Assembly: GCF_023702065.1 (NCBI RefSeq) | Contig: NZ_QFDM01000001.1 | Coordinates: 558,001-622,000, forward strand | Length of the DNA: 64,000 nucleotides | Origin: Methanoculleus oceani | Lineage (GTDB): Archaea > Halobacteriota > Methanomicrobia > Methanomicrobiales > Methanoculleaceae | Direction of reading: 5' to 3' | Shown: positions 9,583 to 57,570 of the stretch, piece by piece | Numbering within the stretch: position 1 is the stretch's first letter | Layout of the letters: each line of letters opens with the position of its first letter | Program-made: the position numbers and the translations under genes | The notes under the pieces: model-generated | The model's database searches: none | Told to the model about the DNA's origin: nothing | The model's input: only the letters and a program-made list of their open reading frames with translations

Positions 9583-9782
9583 GGGAATATCGCCACGGGG
9601 GGAGGGGCTGACGGGGAGGGGGGAGCATCCCCCCTCCCCTGTCTCCATCCCATAAGGAAACATGTAACCCCCACCCCGCCCGGCCTTCGGCCTCCTCACC
9701 CGCACCTGCGGTGCTCATGCTCCGGCCCTACGGCCCGTCGCACCCCACACCTCGGGGCGGGGGCAGTGCGTGGCGATATCCC
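9583..9782. repeat. Structured repeat element bracketed by inverted repeats
   Basis: The region 9442-9976 has no convincing gene. Within it GGGAATATCGCCAC (9583-9596) and GTGGCGATATCCC (9770-9782) form an inverted repeat apart from one extra A. Between them lie a hairpin with a perfect 12-bp stem GGGGAGGGGGGA / TCCCCCCTCCCC and a 3-nt loop (9613-9639), a GGCC hairpin near 9681, and a modular hairpin array at about 9700-9733 with GCACC-tgc-GGTGC, the linker CTCATGCTCCG, GGCCC-tac-GGGCC and the linker GTCGC. The array is in reverse orientation although both neighbouring genes are on the plus strand. Confidence 0.65.
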
Positions 9783-9976
9783 CTCGAAATCCGTGCCCGG
9801 AGTGCAATCTGAGGACGCTCAAGTCCATTCAGTCAAACAAACCCAAAGAGAGCGGCGTCTATCTCTGTGCACCGTTATTCAATCCCTCCGAATGTCTGAG
9901 GCTCCGAATGCTTGCATGTTGCACCTCTCAGGTGCTCGAACTCCGGATGTCCCCCGGACCCGGCCGGCCCGCTCCC

Positions 9977-10672
9977 ATGAAGCATCCGGGCGAAACCCTT
10001 ATCCCCTGCCGCGAGTTCTCTGGAACCGTGACTCTGCCCCGGGCGGGTGCGGTTTTTGCAGCCGTCGTCCTGGCCCTGTATGCGCTTGTCGCCGCAGTGG
10101 TGCTGACCGCGCCCTATGGAGATCCGATCCATGTTATAGCGCGCCTCACCGCTCTGTGGGGTTTTCTTGCCCTCGCCATCGCAGCCATCCTGACACCGTT
10201 CCTCCGGGAGATCATGAAGGTCTTCGGCAGGCCGTTTCTCGCGGTGCACCACACCTTCGCCGCCGTCGGGCTTCTCCTTCCGACAATGCACCCGGTGGCC
10301 CTCGCCATAGGGGCGATGAACCCTGCCGTGTTTATTCCTGTCTTCTCCCCCTGGGGGAGGTTCTGGGCACTCGCAGGCCGGCCCGCACTCTATCTCATCT
10401 ACATCGCGTTTGCCGGGATCCTGCTCCGGAAGTACATCCCGAAATACTGGCGATGGGTGCACGGCCTGATGTACGTCGCGCTCCTCTTTGCTATCGTGCA
10501 CGGAAATCTGATCGGAGACGATTTTGAGAACCCGATCATATGGGTGCTCTTCAATACGCTCTTCGCCCTCGTCGTCGCGGCGTTCGTTCTCAAGCGGTGG
10601 CAGATGACACAGAAGAAGAGGGCATCTGTCCGGAGCGACACTTCGAAGAAGCGGAGCTCGAGAAACCCGTAG
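9977..10672 (+). CDS. Ferric reductase-like transmembrane protein
   Basis: About 231 residues with six hydrophobic segments. Histidines in VHHTFAAVGLLLP, TMHPVALAI, WRWVHGLMY and FAIVHGNLIG are spaced as in the haem-binding four-helix core of the ferric reductase-like domain (YedZ/FRE group). No flavin or NAD domain is attached, so it may pass electrons between a membrane pool and an unknown partner. The start is uncertain: ATG 9977 is used, and GTG 10028, closer to the first membrane helix, is possible. The last roughly 15 residues (about RSDTSKKRSSRNP) and the stop codon are encoded by a hairpin-array repeat. Confidence 0.7.
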   Translation: MKHPGETLIPCREFSGTVTLPRAGAVFAAVVLALYALVAAVVLTAPYGDPIHVIARLTALWGFLALAIAAILTPFLREIMKVFGRPFLAVHHTFAAVGLLLPTMHPVALAIGAMNPAVFIPVFSPWGRFWALAGRPALYLIYIAFAGILLRKYIPKYWRWVHGLMYVALLFAIVHGNLIGDDFENPIIWVLFNTLFALVVAAFVLKRWQMTQKKRASVRSDTSKKRSSRNP

Positions 10673-10700
10673 GGTTTCGAGCGCGGCGGTGCACGGAGTT
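10630..10700 (+). repeat. Modular hairpin array overlapping the 3' end of the ferric reductase-like gene
   Basis: Forward-orientation modules are GGAGCGAC, hairpin ACTTC-ga-AGAAG, linker CGGAGCTCGAG, hairpin AAACCC-gta-GGGTTT, then CGAGCGCGGCG. The coding sequence runs through the first hairpins and stops at the TAG in the loop of the second (10670-10672). Confidence 0.75.
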
Positions 10701-21023: not shown

Positions 21024-21066
21024 GCACGACGGTCGGAGCAGAAGCACCGGAGGTGCGAGTCGCTCC
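21024..21066 (+). repeat. Short hairpin array after pgk
   Basis: Forward-orientation modules GCACGACGGTC, linker CGGAGCAGAAG, hairpin CACC-gga-GGTG and CGAGTCGCTCC start 8 nt after the pgk stop. They match the linker grammar of the larger arrays. Confidence 0.55.
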
Positions 21067-21840
21067 TATCTTCTCTCCGGCTTTCTGTTTCCTGCAACCG
21101 CTCTTCTTCCTTTCGCGTCTTTGTGCGAGGTAACTGGAAAAGGATGCGACGAGATCACACGCGAAGTAAGCGCTATTGTTAGCACTCTCTTCGCGGCTTC
21201 GCGTTTTCGAAGAACTTCGTTTTTCTCAAGCGTGAGATTGTATCGGCACTGCTCCACAGTCACTTCACGTCGAACTGCGAAGGCCTTACCCGAGAAACCA
21301 GGTTATACTGCACCGAACCGGGAGTATCCCCGGCATAACGGCCTGGCCTCAGGCTGCTTGCGATCCGGGTGACGATAAAAAGGAGGTGGGGTTTGGCCTT
21401 TATGGAATGAGGTGGGGGGCCACACCCGAAGATTTCATGGCCCGGTGTAATTGTGGTCGCTGAACACTGGTGCAGGAGCACCGTATACTCCGGTTTGCCC
21501 CTGACCGAACCCTTGTGTCTTCGGTAGGTGTTTTGGTGTGTGGGGTGTGGTGATTGCTGACTGGAATTGAGTAAACTGGTGATTGCTGGGTGTGGTCTTT
21601 CCCCAATCCAGTATCTATGGTGCTCATTATATAATATTATCTAATAAATATTTCGGCTTATATGTCGATTTAAATACTAAACCAGGTTGCGAAAAATTCC
21701 ATTTAACCGATAGAACTGATTATATCGCAGAAAATTTTGACCGTCATGTTTATATGCGCCGCCGGTCGTCCGGCGATGTGTCGGGGGGGATCCCGGCGCC
21801 CGCGCCACCCGGTCTCGCCGTCCGTACCTGCCCGCCGGGG
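21067..21840. other. Long stretch without a confident gene
   Basis: About 770 nt between pgk and the DUF89 gene. 21150-21236 holds GAAG-rich inverted sequence (ACGCGAAG ... CTTCGCGGCTTCGCG), similar to sequence at 57289-57350. 21360-21600 is unusually rich in TG/GTGG on the plus strand. 21625-21740 is an AT-rich island with several TATA-like boxes, unlike the GC-rich surroundings. Open frames here are short and lack good Shine-Dalgarno sites. Confidence 0.6.
21400..21627 (-). CDS. Doubtful 75-residue ORF beside an AT-rich island
   Basis: An ATG at 21625-21627 opens a 75-codon frame rich in His, Thr, Ser and Pro (SNHHTPHTKTPTED) and containing a CSC motif. A minus-strand CATATAAG box near 21660 would place the transcript start about 8 nt before the ATG, so a near-leaderless message is possible. 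No Shine-Dalgarno and no family that I recognise. It may equally be a non-coding transcript. Confidence 0.2.
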   Translation of the reverse strand: MSTIDTGLGKDHTQQSPVYSIPVSNHHTPHTKTPTEDTRVRSGANRSIRCSCTSVQRPQLHRAMKSSGVAPHLIP

Positions 21841-22698: not shown

Positions 22699-22741
22699 GC
22701 TGCAGCTAAATACACCAGTGAAAGAGAAAAAATGGTCTGAT

Positions 22742-22814
22742 GGGGCCACTGCGATTTGAACGCAGGTCAGAAGACCCCCAGTCTCCTAGGATGGCCAGGC
22801 TACCCTATGGCCCC
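22742..22814 (-). tRNA. tRNA-Pro (anticodon GGG)
   Basis: 73 nt fold into a cloverleaf: acceptor GGGGCCA/TGGCCCC, D arm GGGTAGCCTGGCCATCC, anticodon stem GGAGA/TCTTC with loop CTGGGGG giving anticodon GGG, and T arm TGCGTTCAAATCGCA. G37 after the anticodon is typical of tRNA-Pro. CCA is not encoded, consistent with the CCA-adding enzyme gene at 42159. Confidence 0.95.
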
Positions 22815-34364: not shown

Positions 34365-34575
34365 AGTACTCCGGCAACATCCGGGGGTATCCCGGGGCAT
34401 AGGCAAACAGTTCTCCCCGGGGCGATTTGCAGGGGGTTTTTAGCGCGCTCCTGCCCGGAAATTATTTATATCTGTGTGCGCTCCATGAGTCTCCTATGAA
34501 TGGTGTCCTCGCCCGGATAGTTAATTCTGCGTCAACTGCGCCAGAACCGGCGAACGGGGTTTGCGGAGTTCCTGG

Positions 34576-36042
34576 ATGCCCGGGGTGGTGTCGTTGAAGG
34601 GATATCTTCTCATTATCGGGGCCCTGGTGCTCTGTATCGGCATGGCTGCCCTTCTTACGTCCGCTCTCGCTGGCTCCGACGAGAACGGCACCGTCGATGC
34701 ACCGGGCGAGAAGCCCGCCGTTAATAAAGTGCCGATCACGCCTGCAGAGAGTCCGGCGCCTGAAGAGGCAGAGGATAAAGCCGTCGAGGAGAGAGAGCCC
34801 CGCTCCCTGGCAACCGGGGAGACTACGTCGCCACCCGGAGAAGCACCGGAGACGACAGAACCGACTGCGGCGCTCACTTCTTCCCCGGCCGCAACGACCC
34901 GGTCGGAGTTTACCGGAGTTGTGCTCACAAACACCAACGAAACCGACGGTTCAGAGACAGAGGAGGTGCCGTCAGCAAATGCAACAGCCTCCCCGGAACC
35001 TGCCGCTACGTCGACCGCGTACGTTGACTACTCCAGCGACGAGGAGGCGGAGGAGACGGTGGCGACACCAACCCTGGAGCGGTATGCCCCCCCGCGCCCG
35101 AGCGCGACGATGGCGAAGGCGCACCAGTCCGGCGACCGGCCGCTGGTCCAGAGCGGCCACCAGATCGTCAACCCTTCCTCGTCCTCCACCCCCGGGGGGA
35201 ATGAGATCGGAACGGCGTCTGCATCCGTCGAGCCGGACAACGGTCTGCTCATCAAGGGTGTCGGAGTGCTCCTCGACCGGACCCCGGAGAACGTCGCCCT
35301 CACCCGGAGCGGGGTGGAGATCGCGAACCTCGACTGGCTGCTCGACCCGGCCATGCGCCTCGGCGGTCGGCACCCGCGGGTAGCGTTTGAGGGGGAGACG
35401 TTCACCGTCACCGTGACGGTCGAGGCCAGGAACCTGACGGTCACGGGGGTGGACCCGGCCTATGTCGTCCTGGTCCCGCCGCCGGACGAGACCGGGGTCT
35501 ACGAGATCACACGGGTCCGCGAACCCCGGGGCCTCCTGGATGGGGAACGCGGCGTCTGGGAGTTCTCGGTCGCCACCCGCACCGGGAGGCTGACGCTTGC
35601 AAACCTCACCCTTCCCGAAGAACGGCTGGTCACCAACCTGACGTCGAACCCGGATGTCTTCGCTTTCCGGGCATACGCATTTGCTGGCAGCCAGGAGATA
35701 ATCTCGACGGGTGTCTCCGACCCGATACTCGCCATCCGGCCCGATGGGAGCGCGGGCATGGCAGAGGCGTCTTCCCTCCCCGAACTTTACGCGCTTGCAG
35801 GCATCCAGGACTCGATGCTCCGCCCGACGGAGACGATGGCCGGGGCGTGGGCCCGGGGCGCCGACCACGACACGATCGTCGCCGGGGCGGTCGGGCACCT
35901 TGAGGCCTTAAGCGATCTCGGGAAGGAGGAGATAGCAGCCGTTTACGACCTGGAAGGAGGAGATGAGGGTGGAGAGCAGTCCGCGACCTCGTCGTCGATA
36001 GTCGACCAGATCATGGAGTTCTTCGGGGGACTGTTCGGGTGA
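34576..36042 (+). CDS. Membrane-anchored surface protein with Thr/Pro/Ser/Glu-rich stalk
   Basis: 488 residues from the ATG at 34576. An N-terminal hydrophobic segment (about 9-30, YLLIIGALVLCIGMAALLTSAL) is a signal anchor. Residues 35-175 are low-complexity Thr, Pro, Ser and Glu, a typical glycosylated stalk. Residues 210-390 form a beta-rich domain with FTVTVTVEARNLTVTGVDPAYVVL, and several NxT/S sites suggest N-glycosylation. The C-terminus ends in an amphipathic helix, VDQIMEFFGGLFG. No family recognised. A TATTTATA box at about 34462-34470 lies upstream. The TGA is followed directly by a hairpin array. Confidence 0.75.
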   Translation: MPGVVSLKGYLLIIGALVLCIGMAALLTSALAGSDENGTVDAPGEKPAVNKVPITPAESPAPEEAEDKAVEEREPRSLATGETTSPPGEAPETTEPTAALTSSPAATTRSEFTGVVLTNTNETDGSETEEVPSANATASPEPAATSTAYVDYSSDEEAEETVATPTLERYAPPRPSATMAKAHQSGDRPLVQSGHQIVNPSSSSTPGGNEIGTASASVEPDNGLLIKGVGVLLDRTPENVALTRSGVEIANLDWLLDPAMRLGGRHPRVAFEGETFTVTVTVEARNLTVTGVDPAYVVLVPPPDETGVYEITRVREPRGLLDGERGVWEFSVATRTGRLTLANLTLPEERLVTNLTSNPDVFAFRAYAFAGSQEIISTGVSDPILAIRPDGSAGMAEASSLPELYALAGIQDSMLRPTETMAGAWARGADHDTIVAGAVGHLEALSDLGKEEIAAVYDLEGGDEGGEQSATSSSIVDQIMEFFGGLFG

Positions 36043-36201
36043 GCGACGGACGTAACGTCCGGAGCTCGAGAAAACCCGGAGGGTTTTCGAGTTGCGATGA
36101 TTGGCCCTACGGGCCAATCGGAGCTTGAGAAGCCGTCAGGCTTCGAAGTGCGACGCGTGCCCCGCTAGGGGCAGGCGGAGTTCGAGCACCGAAGATGCGA
36201 G
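36043..36201 (+). repeat. Modular hairpin array, forward copy
   Basis: It starts at the base after a stop codon. Modules in order: GCGACG, hairpin GGACGT/ACGTCC, CGGAGCTCGAG, hairpin AAAACCC/GGGTTTT, CGAGTTGCGATG, hairpin TTGGCCC/GGGCCAA, CGGAGCTTGAG, hairpin AAGCC/GGCTT, GTGCGACG, hairpin TGCCCC/GGGGCA, CGGAGTTCGAG, CACC and GATGCGAG. Linkers alternate between two types while the stems differ in sequence. Confidence 0.8.
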
Positions 36202-36241
36202 ACCATGAGGAGGCGTTACAGCATCCTCTACCAACATCGCA

Positions 36242-36400
36242 CCTCGCACCTAACAGTGCCCAAACTCGGTTCCTCGAAACCCTTCGGGTTTCTCGAACTC
36301 CGTCCCTTCGGGACGTCGTTCTGCGGAACCTCGCTACTCGAAAACGCTTCGCGTTTTCTCGAGCTCCGCTCTTTCAGAGCGTCGCTCCCTGAACTCCTTC
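36242..36400 (-). repeat. Modular hairpin array, reverse copy
   Basis: The same grammar on the other strand: hairpins AAACCC/GGGTTT, GTCCC/GGGAC, AAAACGC/GCGTTTT and GCTCT/AGAGC, separated by CTCGAACTCCG, GTCGTTC, CTCGAGCTCCG and CGTCGC. It faces the forward copy and runs into the 3' end of the DUF1786 gene. Confidence 0.8.
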
Positions 36401-37410
36401 CAGAGGTGCATCAGCCCGAAGCACCCCGAGAGCATCATGTCCCCGAAGGGTGCCGCCTGGTATGCCTCCGGCAGCAGCCGGAGCCGGTTCGGGCCCGTGA
36501 CGACCACGGCACCGGTGGCGAGGGGTTTTCTGACCGCCGCCCCGTGGCCGCCGTCATCGAAGATTTCTTCCGAGGTCAGCGTGCCGTCGGCGAGCCGCCG
36601 GATGTAATGCTGGAGTTTTTCAGGGTCGAGCGCGCCGGTGTGGTGCTCGAAGAGCCCGTGGATCTCCCGCCCTTTCAGGGTGAAGCAGAGGGTGTGCCCG
36701 TTCCCGGCGTTGACGAGGGTCACCCCTGCCCCGGCCATGCCCCGGACCACCGGGTCGCAGAGCACCCCTATCAGGGCGACGGGGCCGGTGTCGGCGACGA
36801 GCGCGCCCGGCGCCTGGTGTCGGACTGCCTGCATCCGGGTCATATCGGCGAGCGGTGGGTCCACGGCAAGCGAGAGGAGGTCCCAGTCGCCGGCGTCCAG
36901 CCGCTCCCGCATCAGTTCGAACCGGTGGATGCGGTTGCTCCGGTGCGGGGAGTAGCCGTGGTCCTGGACCGCGATCGCGACGTTCTCCGGATAATCCACG
37001 CCGAAGAGGGAGAGCGCTTTTTGCAGTTCCGGTTTCATGTAATCGGTGGTGCGGACGATCATTGCGTCTCCCGGCGGAGCGGAGCGGATCTCGACACCCG
37101 TCGCCCGCACCCTTTCTAAGTCGTCGTGGATGGTCCCGGCGGCCTCAGGCGTGGCGTAGACGGGGAGACCTCGGGCCAGGTGCTCTCGTATGGCACCGGT
37201 GTTCGCGCCGCCGCCCATCAGGAACCCGTCCAGGAAGACCGGGCGTCCGGCCCCGGTTGCCTGCCGGATCTTTGCCGCCGTCACCACGGTCGGAGAGGGG
37301 AGGACCAGTTTGATGCTGTTCTCGATCGATCGGCCGGGCTCGTAGACCAGGATATCCTGGGTGCCCCTGCCGACATCGATGGCGAGGAGTGGCGTCGTCA
37401 GATCGATCAT
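36334..37410 (-). CDS. DUF1786 protein (actin-like ATPase fold suspected)
   Basis: About 358 residues from the ATG at 37410 (GAGG 6 nt upstream). The start LLAIDVGRGTQDILVYEPG and the late VADTGPVALIGVL and VNAGNGHTLCF resemble phosphate-binding loops of the ASKHA (actin/Hsp70) fold. The family is named as putative pyruvate-formate-lyase activating enzyme, but no radical-SAM CxxxCxxC motif is present here, so that name should not be trusted. It follows nrdD on the same strand by 85 nt. The last 18 residues (RERRSERAELEKTRSVFE) and the TAG are encoded by the hairpin array. Confidence 0.75.
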   Translation of the reverse strand: MIDLTTPLLAIDVGRGTQDILVYEPGRSIENSIKLVLPSPTVVTAAKIRQATGAGRPVFLDGFLMGGGANTGAIREHLARGLPVYATPEAAGTIHDDLERVRATGVEIRSAPPGDAMIVRTTDYMKPELQKALSLFGVDYPENVAIAVQDHGYSPHRSNRIHRFELMRERLDAGDWDLLSLAVDPPLADMTRMQAVRHQAPGALVADTGPVALIGVLCDPVVRGMAGAGVTLVNAGNGHTLCFTLKGREIHGLFEHHTGALDPEKLQHYIRRLADGTLTSEEIFDDGGHGAAVRKPLATGAVVVTGPNRLRLLPEAYQAAPFGDMMLSGCFGLMHLWKEFRERRSERAELEKTRSVFE

Positions 37411-37495
37411 GGATGGCCTCAGGTACCGCCGTAGCCCCATGGCAGGCGGTTCCTATCTGAGTCTCCCCGCAAAACCAAAAAAGGTACTCTCGTGG

Positions 37496-40400
37496 TCAGG
37501 CATCCGCCCGGTCTGCTGCCGGGGACACCCCGCCCGCCTTCCCCTGATCCGGACGCCCCGGTTTCAATTCCCGGTACTCCTTCAAGGAGACCGTCAGGTC
37601 CCGGGTGAAGGCGAAGTAGCCGATCTGGGTCGTCCGGCAGAGGTTCATCGCCATCTCCATCAGCCCCCGGGGATCGGGGCGCGCTTCCCCGAGCCATACG
37701 TGGAAGATGTTCCCGCCGTCCACGATGGGGAAGAAGATATGCTCGATCTCGATCCGTTTGGTGAGCGGGACCGGGGCTCCCGGGGTGACGTGGGTCCCGT
37801 TGGTGTAGTAGATGGGGAGGTCGAGCGTCGTGCCGAGCATATCGACCGCCTGGTTGGCGTCGCCCTTGATGACCCGGATGGCGTGGTCCCGGAACCGCTC
37901 GTCGAGGAGATCGGCGACCGCAAACCGCTGGCCGGTCGTCTCCGCCGGGGTGCGGGCGAGGGCGATCGTCATGTTGTGCTTCTTCGAGAGTTCGCGGGCA
38001 TACATCTCGAGTTCGGTCATGGCCCGGACGGCGAGGCGAAACGCCTCCTTCGACTCGTGGAGCTGGTGGCCGGTGAAGTGCTGCACCATCTCGTTGACAC
38101 CGACCATGCCGATGGTGTAGACGAGCCCTTCGAGGTCCACGGCAACCGCACCGCGCTCACCGGTGTTCGGGTCCTTCGGGCGCTGCATCGCAAACGGCAT
38201 CCGCCCGTTCGTCCGGATCAGGGACATCCAGCGCCGCTTGATCCGGTAGAGGTCGACGGCGATGTCCATGAGTGACTTGAGCTCGGCAAAGAGGCGTTCC
38301 TGGTCGCCTTCGGCCTTATAGGCAGCGCGCGGGCAGTTGATGGACATCACCTGCCAGGAGCCCATCGAGAAGTGTTTCCCATCACGGAAGTAGAGTTTGT
38401 CCTCGAACTCGTCGTCCTCGTCGGCGAGCGACGAAAATTGATAGGCACAGCATTGATAGCATGAGATCCCCTCTCCGGCGCCCCGGTAGCCGGGGATCTG
38501 GTTGTCGTAGTAAGGGGTGCCGTATTTTGACGCGAGTTCGAAGGTCATCAGGTAGAGGTCCTGATAGGTTGGGAGGTCCGGGTGCTCGCGGTTGAACTCC
38601 TCGTTCTCGGTGAGGAAGTCGGGCTCGATGCTGATCTCGGGCTTCGGGAAGGAGAAGGGCTTGCCCCAGTAGTCCCCCTCGAGCATCACCTCCATCAGCG
38701 CCTTGAAGAGGAGCCTGACCTCACGCTCGAACTCGCCGTAGGTCCGGAGCTTTGCCTGCTTCCCGTCCCAGACCTTGCCGCGGTAGACGCAGGGCTTGTC
38801 CTTCCAGAGAGTCGGGACGCCCGGGGAGAGCTGGACCGACGAGAAGACCACCTGGCCGCCACGGGCGACCATCATCTGGGTCATCTCGTAGACGAACATC
38901 TGCATCAGCTGCTTGATCTCCTCGTAGTCCATCCCTTCGAAGAAGGGCGCCATGAACGTGAGGAAGTTGTAGTAGCCCTGGCCGCCGGCGAAGTTCGTCT
39001 GGGCGGAGCCGAGCGCCTTGACCGCGTGGAGGACCGCCACTTCGGCCCTCTTGGCGGGGCCGGCGACCGACGCTTTCGTCCCGTTGCCGTCGGGCATCAG
39101 GCCGTAGTAGAAGAAGTAGCGCAGGTCCCAATCCTGGCAGTTGTGGACGAGCAGGCCGTCGGAGGCAAAGAACGTATGGCTCTCCTCGGTCCCGTCGCCG
39201 TCGAGGAAGAGGTCGTAGACGTACGCTCCGGTCGGCTCTGTCACAGAGACCTCGACGACGGTCTCCTCCCGCTCTCCAACCTGCCTCTCCTTCACTGCAG
39301 AAAGGAAACCGTCGATGTGGTCCTGCCGCTCGTCGAGGAACGTGGCATACCGGGCAAACGTCTCGATATTCCTCCGGCCGTTGAGCTGGAGCCGGTAGAG
39401 CGTCCGCCGCTCTTCCTCTCCGTAGAGCTCGACGATGTGGGGTGTCATCCCGAGCGATGTGAGCAGGAGCGAGAGTTCCTGCCGGAGGGTCGGTGACGCG
39501 GTGGTGTAGTTGACGATGCAGTCCGATTTCTCCGGGCGGTAGTAGGCCGAACCGTCCCCGGTGAAGAGGGCGGAGAGGAACTCGTGGAGGAGCACGTCGT
39601 CGAGATGGTATACGATCCAGGGGAGGCGTTTTCCTGCTGCCCCCTCCGGGATGCCGAAGACGTAGCGGAAGAGCAGGTAGGCCGCCTTGCCGCCGAAATA
39701 AACCTGCAGCGCCCGGTTGCGCTCCACCTCGACCCCGTAGATGGCCGTGGTGCCTGGATTGCCGCCGGCGACTGTCGCATAGGTGTTCAGGGCGGCGCGT
39801 GCCGCAGCCTGAATCGCGGGCGCCTGATGGTTCTCGGTGATCGCGAGGTTGTATTGCCCGGCCGCCGGCGCGGCGTTGTAGTTGCCCTCGGCGACGAAGA
39901 ACCCGAGAAGGCGGATGAGTTCGGGTGTCAGCGTGAGAAGGGCGGGCAGTTCGTGCTCGCTCCCGGTGACCCCGATAGTGACCCCGGCATAATCCTCGAT
40001 GCCATAGTGACTGCAAAAGGCGTTGAAGAGAGCTACCGGCATGATCCCGCGCGTATACCACTGCTTCCGGTGCTCGACGCCGAGGGTTCGCGAGATCCCG
40101 GCATACGAGACAGCCCGTCCGGTTCGCACCGCAGCGGCAAAGATCTCCCCGGCACCGCGGACGTAGACGTTCTCGAGGAGGTGGGCCGGGACCGATGCCG
40201 GCAGTTCCCGGACGAGATCGATTGCCCCGACCTTCTCCCCGCGGACGGCATCGGTCCCGGTGATCCTGTAGAGAGCATCCCCGGGGCATACCTCGTCGGC
40301 ACGGCGGATGTCCATCCCCTCGCCGGTCCGCACCGGGATCCGGTGCTCGCCGGTGACCATCAGCGACTGCCCGCCGGATGTCCGTATCCGGAGCATCTCG

Positions 40401-41125
40401 CCCGGGTTCACCCGCCGCCGGGTCACCTTCGTAACCTGCCTCCATCCTCCGGGAGTGAGCGCACAGAGATCCTGTGGGCGCCACTCATCACCTTCGATCG
40501 GGAGTTCGTCGGGACGGATGCTCCGGATCCGGTTCTCCATCCGCACGGGTATGGCCGTGCTCCCGTCGATACAGAACGGGCGGGTACCAAAGTATTCCAG
40601 GTCGTGGATGTGGAGATCGCCGCGGAGGTGGTGGTCGGCAAGGTCCGGAGGGAGCTGCAGGAGGTACTGCTCCTTGCTGATCTTGTCCGCCTTCTTCTTA
40701 TGCGAGGTCTCGGCGTTCTCCTGGAGGTTGGCGTTGTCATGCGCCTCGAACCCTCTCCCCACATCGATGAGATGCGCGTCGAAGACCGGGGTTCCCACCC
40801 GCGTACAGACGTTGCGGTAGGACGTAAGCCCGCGCTCAAGGAGCGTCATGTTGACGATCTCGCGGATCAGGGGGCCGGAGAGCGACTGCAGCCCAAGCAT
40901 CTGGATCTTCTTCTCGACCCGCCGGGCGACATCCTGCGCGGTCTCCTCGTCGGCGCCCTCGTAGCCGTAGAAGACCTCCACGAGGCGGCTCTCCTCCACG
41001 ATCTGCCTGACGATCCGGTTCCGATTCCAGTCAAGGAGGTAGCCCCGCGAGGTACGGACTTTCGGGAAGGTGGGGACAAACTCCCCGAATAACGTCGCCT
41101 GCGTTGACTTGCGCGTCAACCTCAT
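37496..41125 (-). CDS. nrdD: Anaerobic ribonucleotide reductase NrdD with intein
   Basis: 1209-residue precursor. Residues 20-105 are an ATP cone. The reductase barrel begins at GDLHIHDLEYFGTRPF, is interrupted by an intein at 185-662, and resumes at CQDWDLRYFFYYGL. After splicing it is 731 residues. GISCYQCCAYQFSS likely holds the finger-loop cysteines. The protein ends with GYFAFTRDLTVSLKEYRELKPGRPDQ and about 15 polar residues. The CxxC pairs and the RVxGY-type glycyl-radical motif expected at the C-terminus of class III enzymes are absent, and only 85 nt separate the stop from the next gene. The start overlaps the glutaredoxin gene by 4 nt. Confidence 0.93.
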   Translation of the reverse strand: MRLTRKSTQATLFGEFVPTFPKVRTSRGYLLDWNRNRIVRQIVEESRLVEVFYGYEGADEETAQDVARRVEKKIQMLGLQSLSGPLIREIVNMTLLERGLTSYRNVCTRVGTPVFDAHLIDVGRGFEAHDNANLQENAETSHKKKADKISKEQYLLQLPPDLADHHLRGDLHIHDLEYFGTRPFCIDGSTAIPVRMENRIRSIRPDELPIEGDEWRPQDLCALTPGGWRQVTKVTRRRVNPGEMLRIRTSGGQSLMVTGEHRIPVRTGEGMDIRRADEVCPGDALYRITGTDAVRGEKVGAIDLVRELPASVPAHLLENVYVRGAGEIFAAAVRTGRAVSYAGISRTLGVEHRKQWYTRGIMPVALFNAFCSHYGIEDYAGVTIGVTGSEHELPALLTLTPELIRLLGFFVAEGNYNAAPAAGQYNLAITENHQAPAIQAAARAALNTYATVAGGNPGTTAIYGVEVERNRALQVYFGGKAAYLLFRYVFGIPEGAAGKRLPWIVYHLDDVLLHEFLSALFTGDGSAYYRPEKSDCIVNYTTASPTLRQELSLLLTSLGMTPHIVELYGEEERRTLYRLQLNGRRNIETFARYATFLDERQDHIDGFLSAVKERQVGEREETVVEVSVTEPTGAYVYDLFLDGDGTEESHTFFASDGLLVHNCQDWDLRYFFYYGLMPDGNGTKASVAGPAKRAEVAVLHAVKALGSAQTNFAGGQGYYNFLTFMAPFFEGMDYEEIKQLMQMFVYEMTQMMVARGGQVVFSSVQLSPGVPTLWKDKPCVYRGKVWDGKQAKLRTYGEFEREVRLLFKALMEVMLEGDYWGKPFSFPKPEISIEPDFLTENEEFNREHPDLPTYQDLYLMTFELASKYGTPYYDNQIPGYRGAGEGISCYQCCAYQFSSLADEDDEFEDKLYFRDGKHFSMGSWQVMSINCPRAAYKAEGDQERLFAELKSLMDIAVDLYRIKRRWMSLIRTNGRMPFAMQRPKDPNTGERGAVAVDLEGLVYTIGMVGVNEMVQHFTGHQLHESKEAFRLAVRAMTELEMYARELSKKHNMTIALARTPAETTGQRFAVADLLDERFRDHAIRVIKGDANQAVDMLGTTLDLPIYYTNGTHVTPGAPVPLTKRIEIEHIFFPIVDGGNIFHVWLGEARPDPRGLMEMAMNLCRTTQIGYFAFTRDLTVSLKEYRELKPGRPDQGKAGGVSPAADRADA
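39140..40573 (-). mobile_element. Intein with LAGLIDADG homing endonuclease, inside NrdD
   Basis: 478 residues (185-662 of the precursor). Block A is CIDGSTAIPV with Cys1, block B is LMVTGEHRIPV, and block F/G is VYDLFLDGDGTEESH...LLVHN with the penultimate His and terminal Asn, followed by extein Cys663. Two LAGLIDADG-like motifs, LLGFFVAEGNY (407-417) and LSALFTGDGSAYY (517-529), indicate a homing endonuclease likely to be intact. The frame is open throughout and all splice residues are present, so it should be active. Confidence 0.95.
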
Positions 41126-46860: not shown

Positions 46861-46994
46861 CGCGTCACCCGTACCGTGCCGGGGAGGAAACTGCGTCATG
46901 CCCGGGAAGACGCCGGCAATGAGGGCGGTTGCCCTCGCCTTCCGTTCAGGCACACTCTCGATCGGTATATCCTGCCGGAGTACCATTCTTCTCC

Positions 46995-47411
46995 ATGAGC
47001 ATGACGGAATATGCAAAACTCATCGGCTTCGGCATCCTCACCTGGCTCCTCCCCTTCCTGCTTGCGATTCCTCTCTATTCGCGGGAGGGTGAACCGCTCC
47101 ACGATATCTTCCTGATCAAGTCGGTCCTGCTCGTCTTCTCGGCCGCGCTCGGGACCTTCCTCATCCTGATCTATTTCAGGGGCGTGCATGCCCGCTTCGT
47201 CCGGGAAGGCGCCCTGCTCGGCGGCGTATGGCTCCTGATCAACTGGGTGCTCGACGCCGTCGTCCTCCTGCCCCTCTCGGGGATGGACGCCGGCACCTAC
47301 ATGGCGCAGATCGGCCTGCGCTATCTCACCATCCCGATCATCGCGGTCGGGATCGGGTATGGGATCGAAGAGGCCGTGCGGGGTGCGACGGGCCGCCGGG
47401 CCGGAGCATGA
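46995..47411 (+). CDS. Four-helix membrane protein of unknown function
   Basis: 138 residues with four membrane helices (about 7-27, 41-62, 75-97 and 108-128). GTATATC at 46967-46973 lies 25 nt upstream, so the message should be leaderless at ATG 46995. No family recognised with confidence. The last residues (ATGRRAGA) and the TGA come from the first unit of the 49-nt tandem repeat. Confidence 0.65.
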   Translation: MSMTEYAKLIGFGILTWLLPFLLAIPLYSREGEPLHDIFLIKSVLLVFSAALGTFLILIYFRGVHARFVREGALLGGVWLLINWVLDAVVLLPLSGMDAGTYMAQIGLRYLTIPIIAVGIGYGIEEAVRGATGRRAGA

Positions 47412-47530
47412 GAAGACCTTCGGTCTTCGAGCAACGACGGGCCGCCGGGCCGGAGCATGAGAAGACCTTCGGTCTTCGAGCAACGACGGGCCGCCGGGCC
47501 GGAGCATGAGAAGACCTTCGGTCTTCGAGT
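47386..47530 (+). repeat. Three tandem copies of a 49-nt two-hairpin unit
   Basis: Units begin at 47386, 47435 and 47484. Each is CGACG, hairpin GGCC-gcc-GGCC, CGGAGCATGAG, hairpin AAGACC-ttc-GGTCTT, CGAGCAA. The copies look identical, unlike the divergent hairpins of the other arrays. It lies between convergent genes and overlaps the 3' end of the left one. Confidence 0.9.
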
Positions 47531-57176: not shown

Positions 57177-57288
57177 GAGAACAGCCAGTCTCACCTGAGC
57201 GGCCCGGTCGGGGTGCTCCCGACCTCCCCGGCGCTCATACATCGCCGCTTCGCACGAGACTACATCGTTGTCCCTATGCACCCCTGAC

Positions 57289-57570
57289 TCACGCGAAGAA
57301 CGCGAAGCCGCGAAGTTAGTTGATGCGGGTGTTAGCGGTCCCTTTCGCGTTCTTCGCACCTCGCACCTTCGGTGCTCAAACTCCGTTCCAGAAGGAACGT
57401 CGTTCCTACCGGTGCTCCTGCTCCGGCCCTTCGCACCTGACGGTGCTCACGCTCCGGCCCTGCGGCCCGTCGCGTTCGGCCCGTCGCATTCCGTTGGAAC
57501 TCGCACTTCGCACCTGACGGTGCTCGAACTCCGGCCCTTCGGCCCGTCGTTCTTCACATCTTCGCGTGAG
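57289..57570 (-). repeat. Hairpin array bracketed by a 12-nt inverted repeat
   Basis: CTCACGCGAAGA at 57289-57300 is matched by TCTTCGCGTGAG near 57559-57570. Inside, reverse-orientation modules include CACC-ttc-GGTG, CTCAAACTCCG, TTCC-agaa-GGAA, GTCGTTCC, CACC-tgac-GGTG (twice), CACGCTCCG, GGCCC-tgc-GGGCC, GTCGCG, CTCGAACTCCG and GGCCC-ttc-GGGCC. It lies between the second glnA and the convergent gene ending at 57717. Confidence 0.8.

Follow-up and report, generated by a model that had tools for sequence, protein, structure and literature searches.

The question raised by this locus is what the short hairpins are that form two facing arrays at 36 kb. The window, meaning the whole stretch of DNA analysed, spans 64,000 nucleotides (bases 558001-622000 of contig 1; the genome has 2,455,266 bases in three contigs). 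Homologues of one gene in the window belong to Methanoculleus, which places the host, a methanogen, in that genus or very close to it. An earlier note, made from the letters alone, had described one grammar of variable hairpins at 9.7, 10.6, 21.0, 36.0-36.4, 47.4 and 57.4 kb. We built two covariance models, R1 from six units of equal length and R2 from 45 hits, and analysed directly the stretches around hits together with five random 12-kb control stretches of the same genome. Modules were found at every one of these sites (table 1), with covariance-model E values of about 1e-7 to 1e-20. ORF and gene calls confirmed the facing arrangement of the two 36-kb arrays, which are flanked by convergent genes: one encodes 493 aa (34561-36042, +) and the other is a DUF1786 gene (36334-37440, -). 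The plus-strand array (36043-36201) consists of three modules and the minus-strand array (36273-36385) of two. Three near-identical units of 49 bp occupy 47385-47529 (+), and three further modules lie at 57360-57550 (-). Other features of the window include a gene for anaerobic ribonucleoside-triphosphate reductase that contains a LAGLIDADG intein (37496-41125, -) and a tRNA-Pro (ggg) called by ARAGORN (22741-22814, -), where Rfam gave no tRNA match at gathering score. A palindromic repeat of another kind, with CACGCGAAGAACGCGAAGCCGCGAAG / TTCGCGTTCTTCGC, occurs near module arrays at 57285-57360 and about 21150-21235, and also at locus L096.

Table 1. Modules and associated features of the window, with covariance-model (CM) scores.
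Feature	Position	Strand	CM score (bits)	Remark
Double-hairpin module 1	36043..36091	+	60.2	A foot GAGC/GCTC begins at upstream gene's TGA stop
Module 2, long 10-bp A stem	36094..36147	+	43.8	
Module 3, degenerate B hairpin	36150..36201	+	42	
Module read as DUF1786 C-terminal extension	36337..36385	-	64.5	TAG stop 36334-36336 at module junction
Outer A hairpin GCGA-GGTTCC...GGAACC-GAGT, complete module in loop	36264..36334	-		Empty paralogue in L017
Module nested in outer hairpin's loop	36273..36319	-	66.3	
Module inside MITE-like repeat	9699..9741	-	60.5	Identical modules in L011, L013, L132
MITE-like repeat with module slots	9592..9795	.		Boundaries approximate; GGGGAG/GGGGGG slot empty here, filled in other copies
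Single module, gene 3' end	10635..10681	+	62.7	TAG stop inside B loop
Short degenerate module, 10 nt past phosphoglycerate kinase gene stop	21026..21059	+	30.3	
Module containing TGA stop of gene 46929-47411	47385..47431	+	64.3	
Tandem copy of 47385 module	47434..47480	+	62.1	
Tandem copy of 47385 module	47483..47529	+	62.1	
Module	57360..57403	-	51.1	
Module	57430..57473	-	52.4	
Module	57507..57550	-	50.7	

Each module is about 47 bases long (range about 36-60 bp), starts near (T)GCGA, ends in CGAG and comprises two small hairpins, A and B, of one common design: one or more outer pairs, a tandem G·A mismatch (GA opposite GA), a perfect stem of variable sequence and a GNA or GNNA loop. Module 1, for example, folds as GAGC-GA-CGGACG-TAA-CGTCCG-GA-GCTC plus GAAAACCC-GGA-GGGTTTTC. 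The earlier note had the hairpins separated by two alternating linkers. Folding, covariation and a blind hairpin scan revealed instead that these segments are not unpaired spacers but pair and carry the tandem G·A mismatches, forming the feet of the hairpins, and that the two supposed linkers are the joined feet of adjacent hairpins (CGAG+(n)+GCGA and GGAGC+nnGAG). Single-strand folding of the 36-kb array pairs them as well, and array folds reach a z of about -7. The blind scan collected perfect hairpins of at least 5 bp with loops of 3-4 nt and ignored loop and flank sequence; GA/GA flanks surrounded 182 of 1769 such hairpins at module loci, where the next commonest flank occurred 37 times; in control DNA they surrounded 5 of 446. 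Covariation is seen at the outermost A-hairpin pair (77 G-C, 25 A-T, 13 G·T and 5 A·C; Fisher p 9e-12, an optimistic value given that the copies are related).

The variable stems do keep their pairing, as had been proposed: 95% of stem cells were paired in 45 aligned units, compared with 28-47% when partners were slid, and 10 of 13 stem pairs showed double-sided changes, both figures coming from an alignment that was itself fitted to the structure. An origin by chance or GC bias is ruled out by the random control stretches, which were empty. From the compensating changes the earlier note had concluded that the stems are selected or copied for structure. Copying explains most of them, and on their own they are no proof of selection for structure. 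The stems are drawn from a small shared vocabulary, with GCACC (59), GAAAACGC (16) and GAAACCC, GAAGACC and GAAGCC (9 each) in B hairpins and GTTCC, GGCC, TGCCG and GGACG in A hairpins; a table of A against B stems has too few entries to demonstrate that they reassort freely. Because orthologous positions show whole-stem swaps, chimeras (L158 and L159 have the B hairpin AAACCC-GAA-GGTCTT) and old copies that decayed without compensation (L086, L087), copying with recombination accounts for the stems better than stepwise compensatory evolution.

How widespread is the module? Scanning the genome and its relatives with a covariance model, a check that the earlier note had suggested, yielded further copies in both. 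R2 gave 209 hits across the loci fetched and at least 167 modules in the 2.46 Mb genome of the window, a lower bound with 150 of 4083 candidates scored, and the covariance model found no module in the five 12-kb control stretches. Most Methanoculleus genomes carry at least about 60-126 modules and about ten carry 0-12; a genome from another genus of the same family (G035) carries at least 94. Of the order's 199 genomes, 68 had at least one module under a more stringent cut-off, as did 12 of its 38 genera, and weaker relatives of the module occur in other families of the order. At gathering score, the sole Rfam match in the window was to tRNA, with no family for the module, and its architecture is described nowhere in the literature searched, in keeping with the initial impression that no named family has this grammar. 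The modules are a real, abundant and dynamic REP-like family in an archaeal order.

One strand, that starting GCGA, is marked by mismatches, loops and wobble pairs alike, each of them strand-specific. Among distinct units, triloops were GNA in 104 cases versus TNC in 9, and tetraloops GNNA in 36 versus TNNC in 1. B-hairpin loops were closed by C-G in 112 of 114, and the position outside the G·A foot was taken by C-G in 95 cases, T·G in 48, T-A in 17 and C·A in only 6. The blind scan of other Methanoculleus loci gave the same picture (GNA 65 versus TNC 2), while in other families the feet persist and the loop rule is weaker (GNA in 5 of 14 triloops). Computed folding energy favoured the sense strand in 147 of 155 units, for RNA and DNA alike, and therefore does not discriminate between the two. 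The loops are more telling. GNA and GNNA loops closed on at least two G-C pairs form extra-stable DNA mini-hairpins that resist nucleases, with GCGAAGC as the type case (PMC4686876). The modules follow the same loop rule, and GCGAAGC itself occurs in the module B hairpin, within its AAAACGCGAAGCGTTTT form, although the mini-hairpin is a physical motif, whereas the module is a genetic element. Loops of RNA type were rare, with GNRA in 5 of the 36 GNNA tetraloops and no UNCG. As the loops match the extra-stable DNA classes and not GNRA or UNCG, handling of the module as folded single-stranded DNA is probable, and these loop preferences suggest single-stranded DNA as the favoured acting molecule.

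We then compared filled and empty sites, with one genome per species, so that gain and loss of modules are inferred between species. The 47-kb site is empty in five relatives and filled at the same point in seven, including the window, with different content in each. One of the filled sites (L155), whose flanks are 92-94% identical, has little in common with the window beyond the last B hairpin type; another (L159) holds six tandem copies of 45 bp. At the 36-kb site, six relatives' loci have no array (L089-L091, L093-L095), and elsewhere arrays of differing composition are found, several beginning from the exact stop codon. In the window, an entire module sits in the loop of the outer hairpin GGTTCC-GCAG...GAACC, and the same hairpin is empty in L017 (GGTTCCGCAGGAACC). 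Similar nested modules occur in L007, L106, L115, L119, L125 and L155. Enrichment of nested stems across the whole sequence is slight, so nesting rests on these individual filled and empty pairs. AG stands 2-4 nt before the array start in 47 cases over 104 distinct flanks, versus about 17 expected; being found at under half of the starts, it is a preference rather than a strict rule. No target duplication longer than 2-3 bp (AG/GAG) was seen at modules.

A second kind of repeat also has module slots. This MITE-like repeat of about 200-300 bp, with ends near ATATCGCCAC / GTGGCGATAT and centre GGGGAGGGGGGAGCATCCCCCCTCCCC, is present in many copies (window 9592-9795; L011, L013, L107, L109, L116, L118, L120, L125, L131, L132, L136, L140, L141), and a related carrier is found in G035 (L184-L191). 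Within the genome of the window, its GGGGAG/GGGGGG slot is empty at 9.6 kb and in L109, L116, L136 and L140, and filled with TGCGA...GAG in L011, L131, L013, L107, L132 and L141. An autonomous element was sought at near-identical 47-nt modules close to contig ends in G035; these modules lie inside a MITE-like repeat, and their short flanks showed no transposase. The modules themselves do not qualify as MITEs, which are defined by DDE-type terminal inverted repeats with a target duplication; they lack a terminal inverted repeat, and any duplication is at most the AG/GAG just mentioned.

Modules turn over between species, and comparison of these sequences points to active transposition. We consider it probable (roughly 0.6) that they are a non-autonomous family of mobile double-hairpin elements in Methanoculleus and relatives, REP-like in lifestyle, that would move by a folded-single-strand mechanism. 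Could the same pattern arise with no dedicated mobility, palindromes spreading and changing by recombination, gene conversion and template switching during replication, and being dispersed by hitchhiking in MITE-like repeats? Exact tandem copies (three of 49 bp at 47 kb, the six of 45 bp in L159, and arrays of 7-8 units in L102 and L127), the chimeric B hairpins, the common stem vocabulary and the modules carried inside MITE-like copies would all fit such an account. Yet the majority of arrays lie outside MITE copies, clean insertions in hairpin loops and at gene ends have no other flanking sequence in common, and palindrome repair alone would not predict strand-specific loops and G·A feet. 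We regard this explanation as unlikely.

The position of arrays relative to genes bears on a further alternative, that they are selected RNA elements, 3' UTR hairpins that stabilize, process or terminate mRNAs and are kept for their RNA structure. According to hexamer-based gene calls made in this analysis, convergent gaps hold 40 of 84 scorable intergenic arrays (48%) and make up about 17% of the sampled intergenic length. About 19 arrays have a 5' end that overlaps a sense stop codon or lies no more than 20 nt from it, while about 1 has its 3' end so placed. Both observations, together with the tolerance of G·U in the feet, would suit an RNA role. The stop-codon asymmetry can also follow from selection against long C-terminal extensions, with no targeting rule, since modules encode TGA in the sense direction (TGAGCGA, nTGAG). 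Against an RNA role, orientation is even in codirectional gaps (16 sense and 15 antisense arrays) and 13 arrays lie in divergent gaps; neither the presence nor the content of arrays is conserved at orthologous genes; loops are not of the GNRA or UNCG type; old copies decay without compensation; and several species are nearly devoid of the repeat. Nor are the arrays followed by a T run: their 3' flanks begin with G in 59, T in 41, C in 25 and A in 10 cases, and an intrinsic terminator, a GC hairpin with a T run, does not describe them. Selection for RNA structure as the reason for the family thus seems to us quite improbable. In three genes, 36334-37440 (-), 46929-47411 (+) and 9770-10672 (+), both the stop codon and a C-terminal extension of the reading frame come from an inserted module. 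More generally, modules at gene 3' ends would provide stop codons and place hairpins on transcripts; this looks like a side effect that the host tolerates rather than what the copies are there for.

If the modules are mobile elements, what moves them? The earlier note had likened them to bacterial REP/BIME mosaics in logic but not in sequence, and this comparison holds: the hairpin grammar is modular and genome-wide, without REP sequence. The family is REP-like in the broad sense, with over 100 extragenic palindromes that are dispersed and lie close to the 3' ends of genes. Like the GTAG and CGTC superfamilies of REPs and BIMEs (PMC3733652), whose palindromes measure 20-40 bp, modules are intergenic, exceed 100 copies, lie at gene 3' ends, provide stop codons and form mosaics. 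They differ in their archaeal host, paired A and B hairpins, tandem G·A feet and GNA/GNNA loops, in lacking a GTAG tag, an unpaired CGTC tag and a RAYT, and in forming head-to-tail arrays, whereas REPs form head-to-head dimers. Membership of the GTAG class, with unpaired GTAG at the palindrome end and an associated RAYT (PF01797), was rejected, as modules end in (T)GCGA and CGAG and no RAYT is found in their own genome. The CGTC class, with unpaired CGTC, an 8-9 bp stem starting with A/T pairs, a 4-5 nt loop and a CCA tail, fits no better; modules have a half-paired CGTC string, stems that begin with C-G, loops mostly of 3 nt and no CCA tail. CGTC REPs likewise have no dedicated transposase (PMC3733652).

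An associated RAYT-like transposase had been suggested, and we searched for it. PF01797, the RAYT or Y1 HUH transposase, had no match in the genome of the window, is absent from nearly all module-rich congeners and occurs mainly in module-poor genomes of the genus, with 19 matches in the module-free G020; G009 is a clear exception. The concentration of Y1 transposases in module-poor congeners (G020, G023, G002, G013, G022) may simply follow phylogeny. E. coli REPs carry conserved stem mismatches that the transposase needs for strand-specific recognition of single-stranded DNA (PMC8266576), and the tandem G·A foot could serve in a similar way. Strand-specific hairpins with conserved mismatches and a shared lifestyle would speak for REP/BIME elements moved by a RAYT of the IS200/IS605 superfamily, but the distribution of PF01797 and the missing GTAG and unpaired CGTC tags make such a mover very improbable here. 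A repeat mobilized by a retroelement was also rejected: reverse transcriptase PF00078 is absent from the genome, and its presence in 3 of 35 congeners shows no correlation with modules. A search of a plasmid collection with a neighbouring gene gave no match.

We therefore return to the mobile double-hairpin family and to how it might work. The filled and empty sites show whole modules entering as clean insertions, often just 3' of AG, including into the loops of older modules and one MITE-like slot; arrays afterwards grow in tandem, swap hairpins and decay. The module would act as a folded single strand, its sense strand being recognized by its DNA-type loops and G·A mismatches, and the copy would be joined into new AG-type sites by a trans-acting enzyme other than a Y1/RAYT transposase. 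Ordinary recombination or template switching between hairpins would produce the tandem growth and the reshuffling of stems. More tentatively, and with less than even confidence, the modules may represent a new class of archaeal micro-transposon, in which a substrate of about 47 nt, folded as a single strand with tandem G·A feet and GNA/GNNA loops, is moved in trans by a non-RAYT enzyme, and in which hairpin loops and the element's own CGAG end are the preferred targets, giving nested and tandem arrays.

The closest likenesses in design come from mitochondria. Yeast mitochondrial GC clusters are described as flanked by AG or ACT, merging and shuffling (PMC4478555), and the double-hairpin elements of Allomyces mitochondria as two-hairpin units whose mobility mechanism is unknown (Paquin, Laforest and Lang 2000, as cited in PMC2800124). 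As these sources present them, such elements share with the modules two-hairpin units, variable stems, sporadic presence, merger, shuffling and the lack of a known transposase, and GC clusters also insert beside AG (PMC4478555). Modules indeed join two hairpins of variable stem in one unit, are optional at a given site, and merge and nest. The mitochondrial elements belong to eukaryote organelles and have other sequences, and the cited accounts do not report a G·A foot for them; we take the likeness as analogy only. Nearer to hand, satellite families of 45 and 51 bp are listed for Methanoculleus marisnigri (PMC6749651). Their repeat lengths nearly match those of tandem modules in the genus, and they are probably tandem forms of the module, listed there simply as satellites, with no description in that listing of hairpins, dispersal or mobility.

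Short hairpin repeats without a transposase have long been puzzling, among them CGTC REPs, mitochondrial GC clusters and double-hairpin elements. The module family adds an archaeal case that is abundant and precise in architecture, with clear filled and empty sites and presence or absence within a genus, and comparison of module-rich with module-poor Methanoculleus makes the question of the mover testable. In these methanogens, modules account for hypervariable gene 3' ends, for some C-terminal extensions and, probably, for the published satellite arrays.
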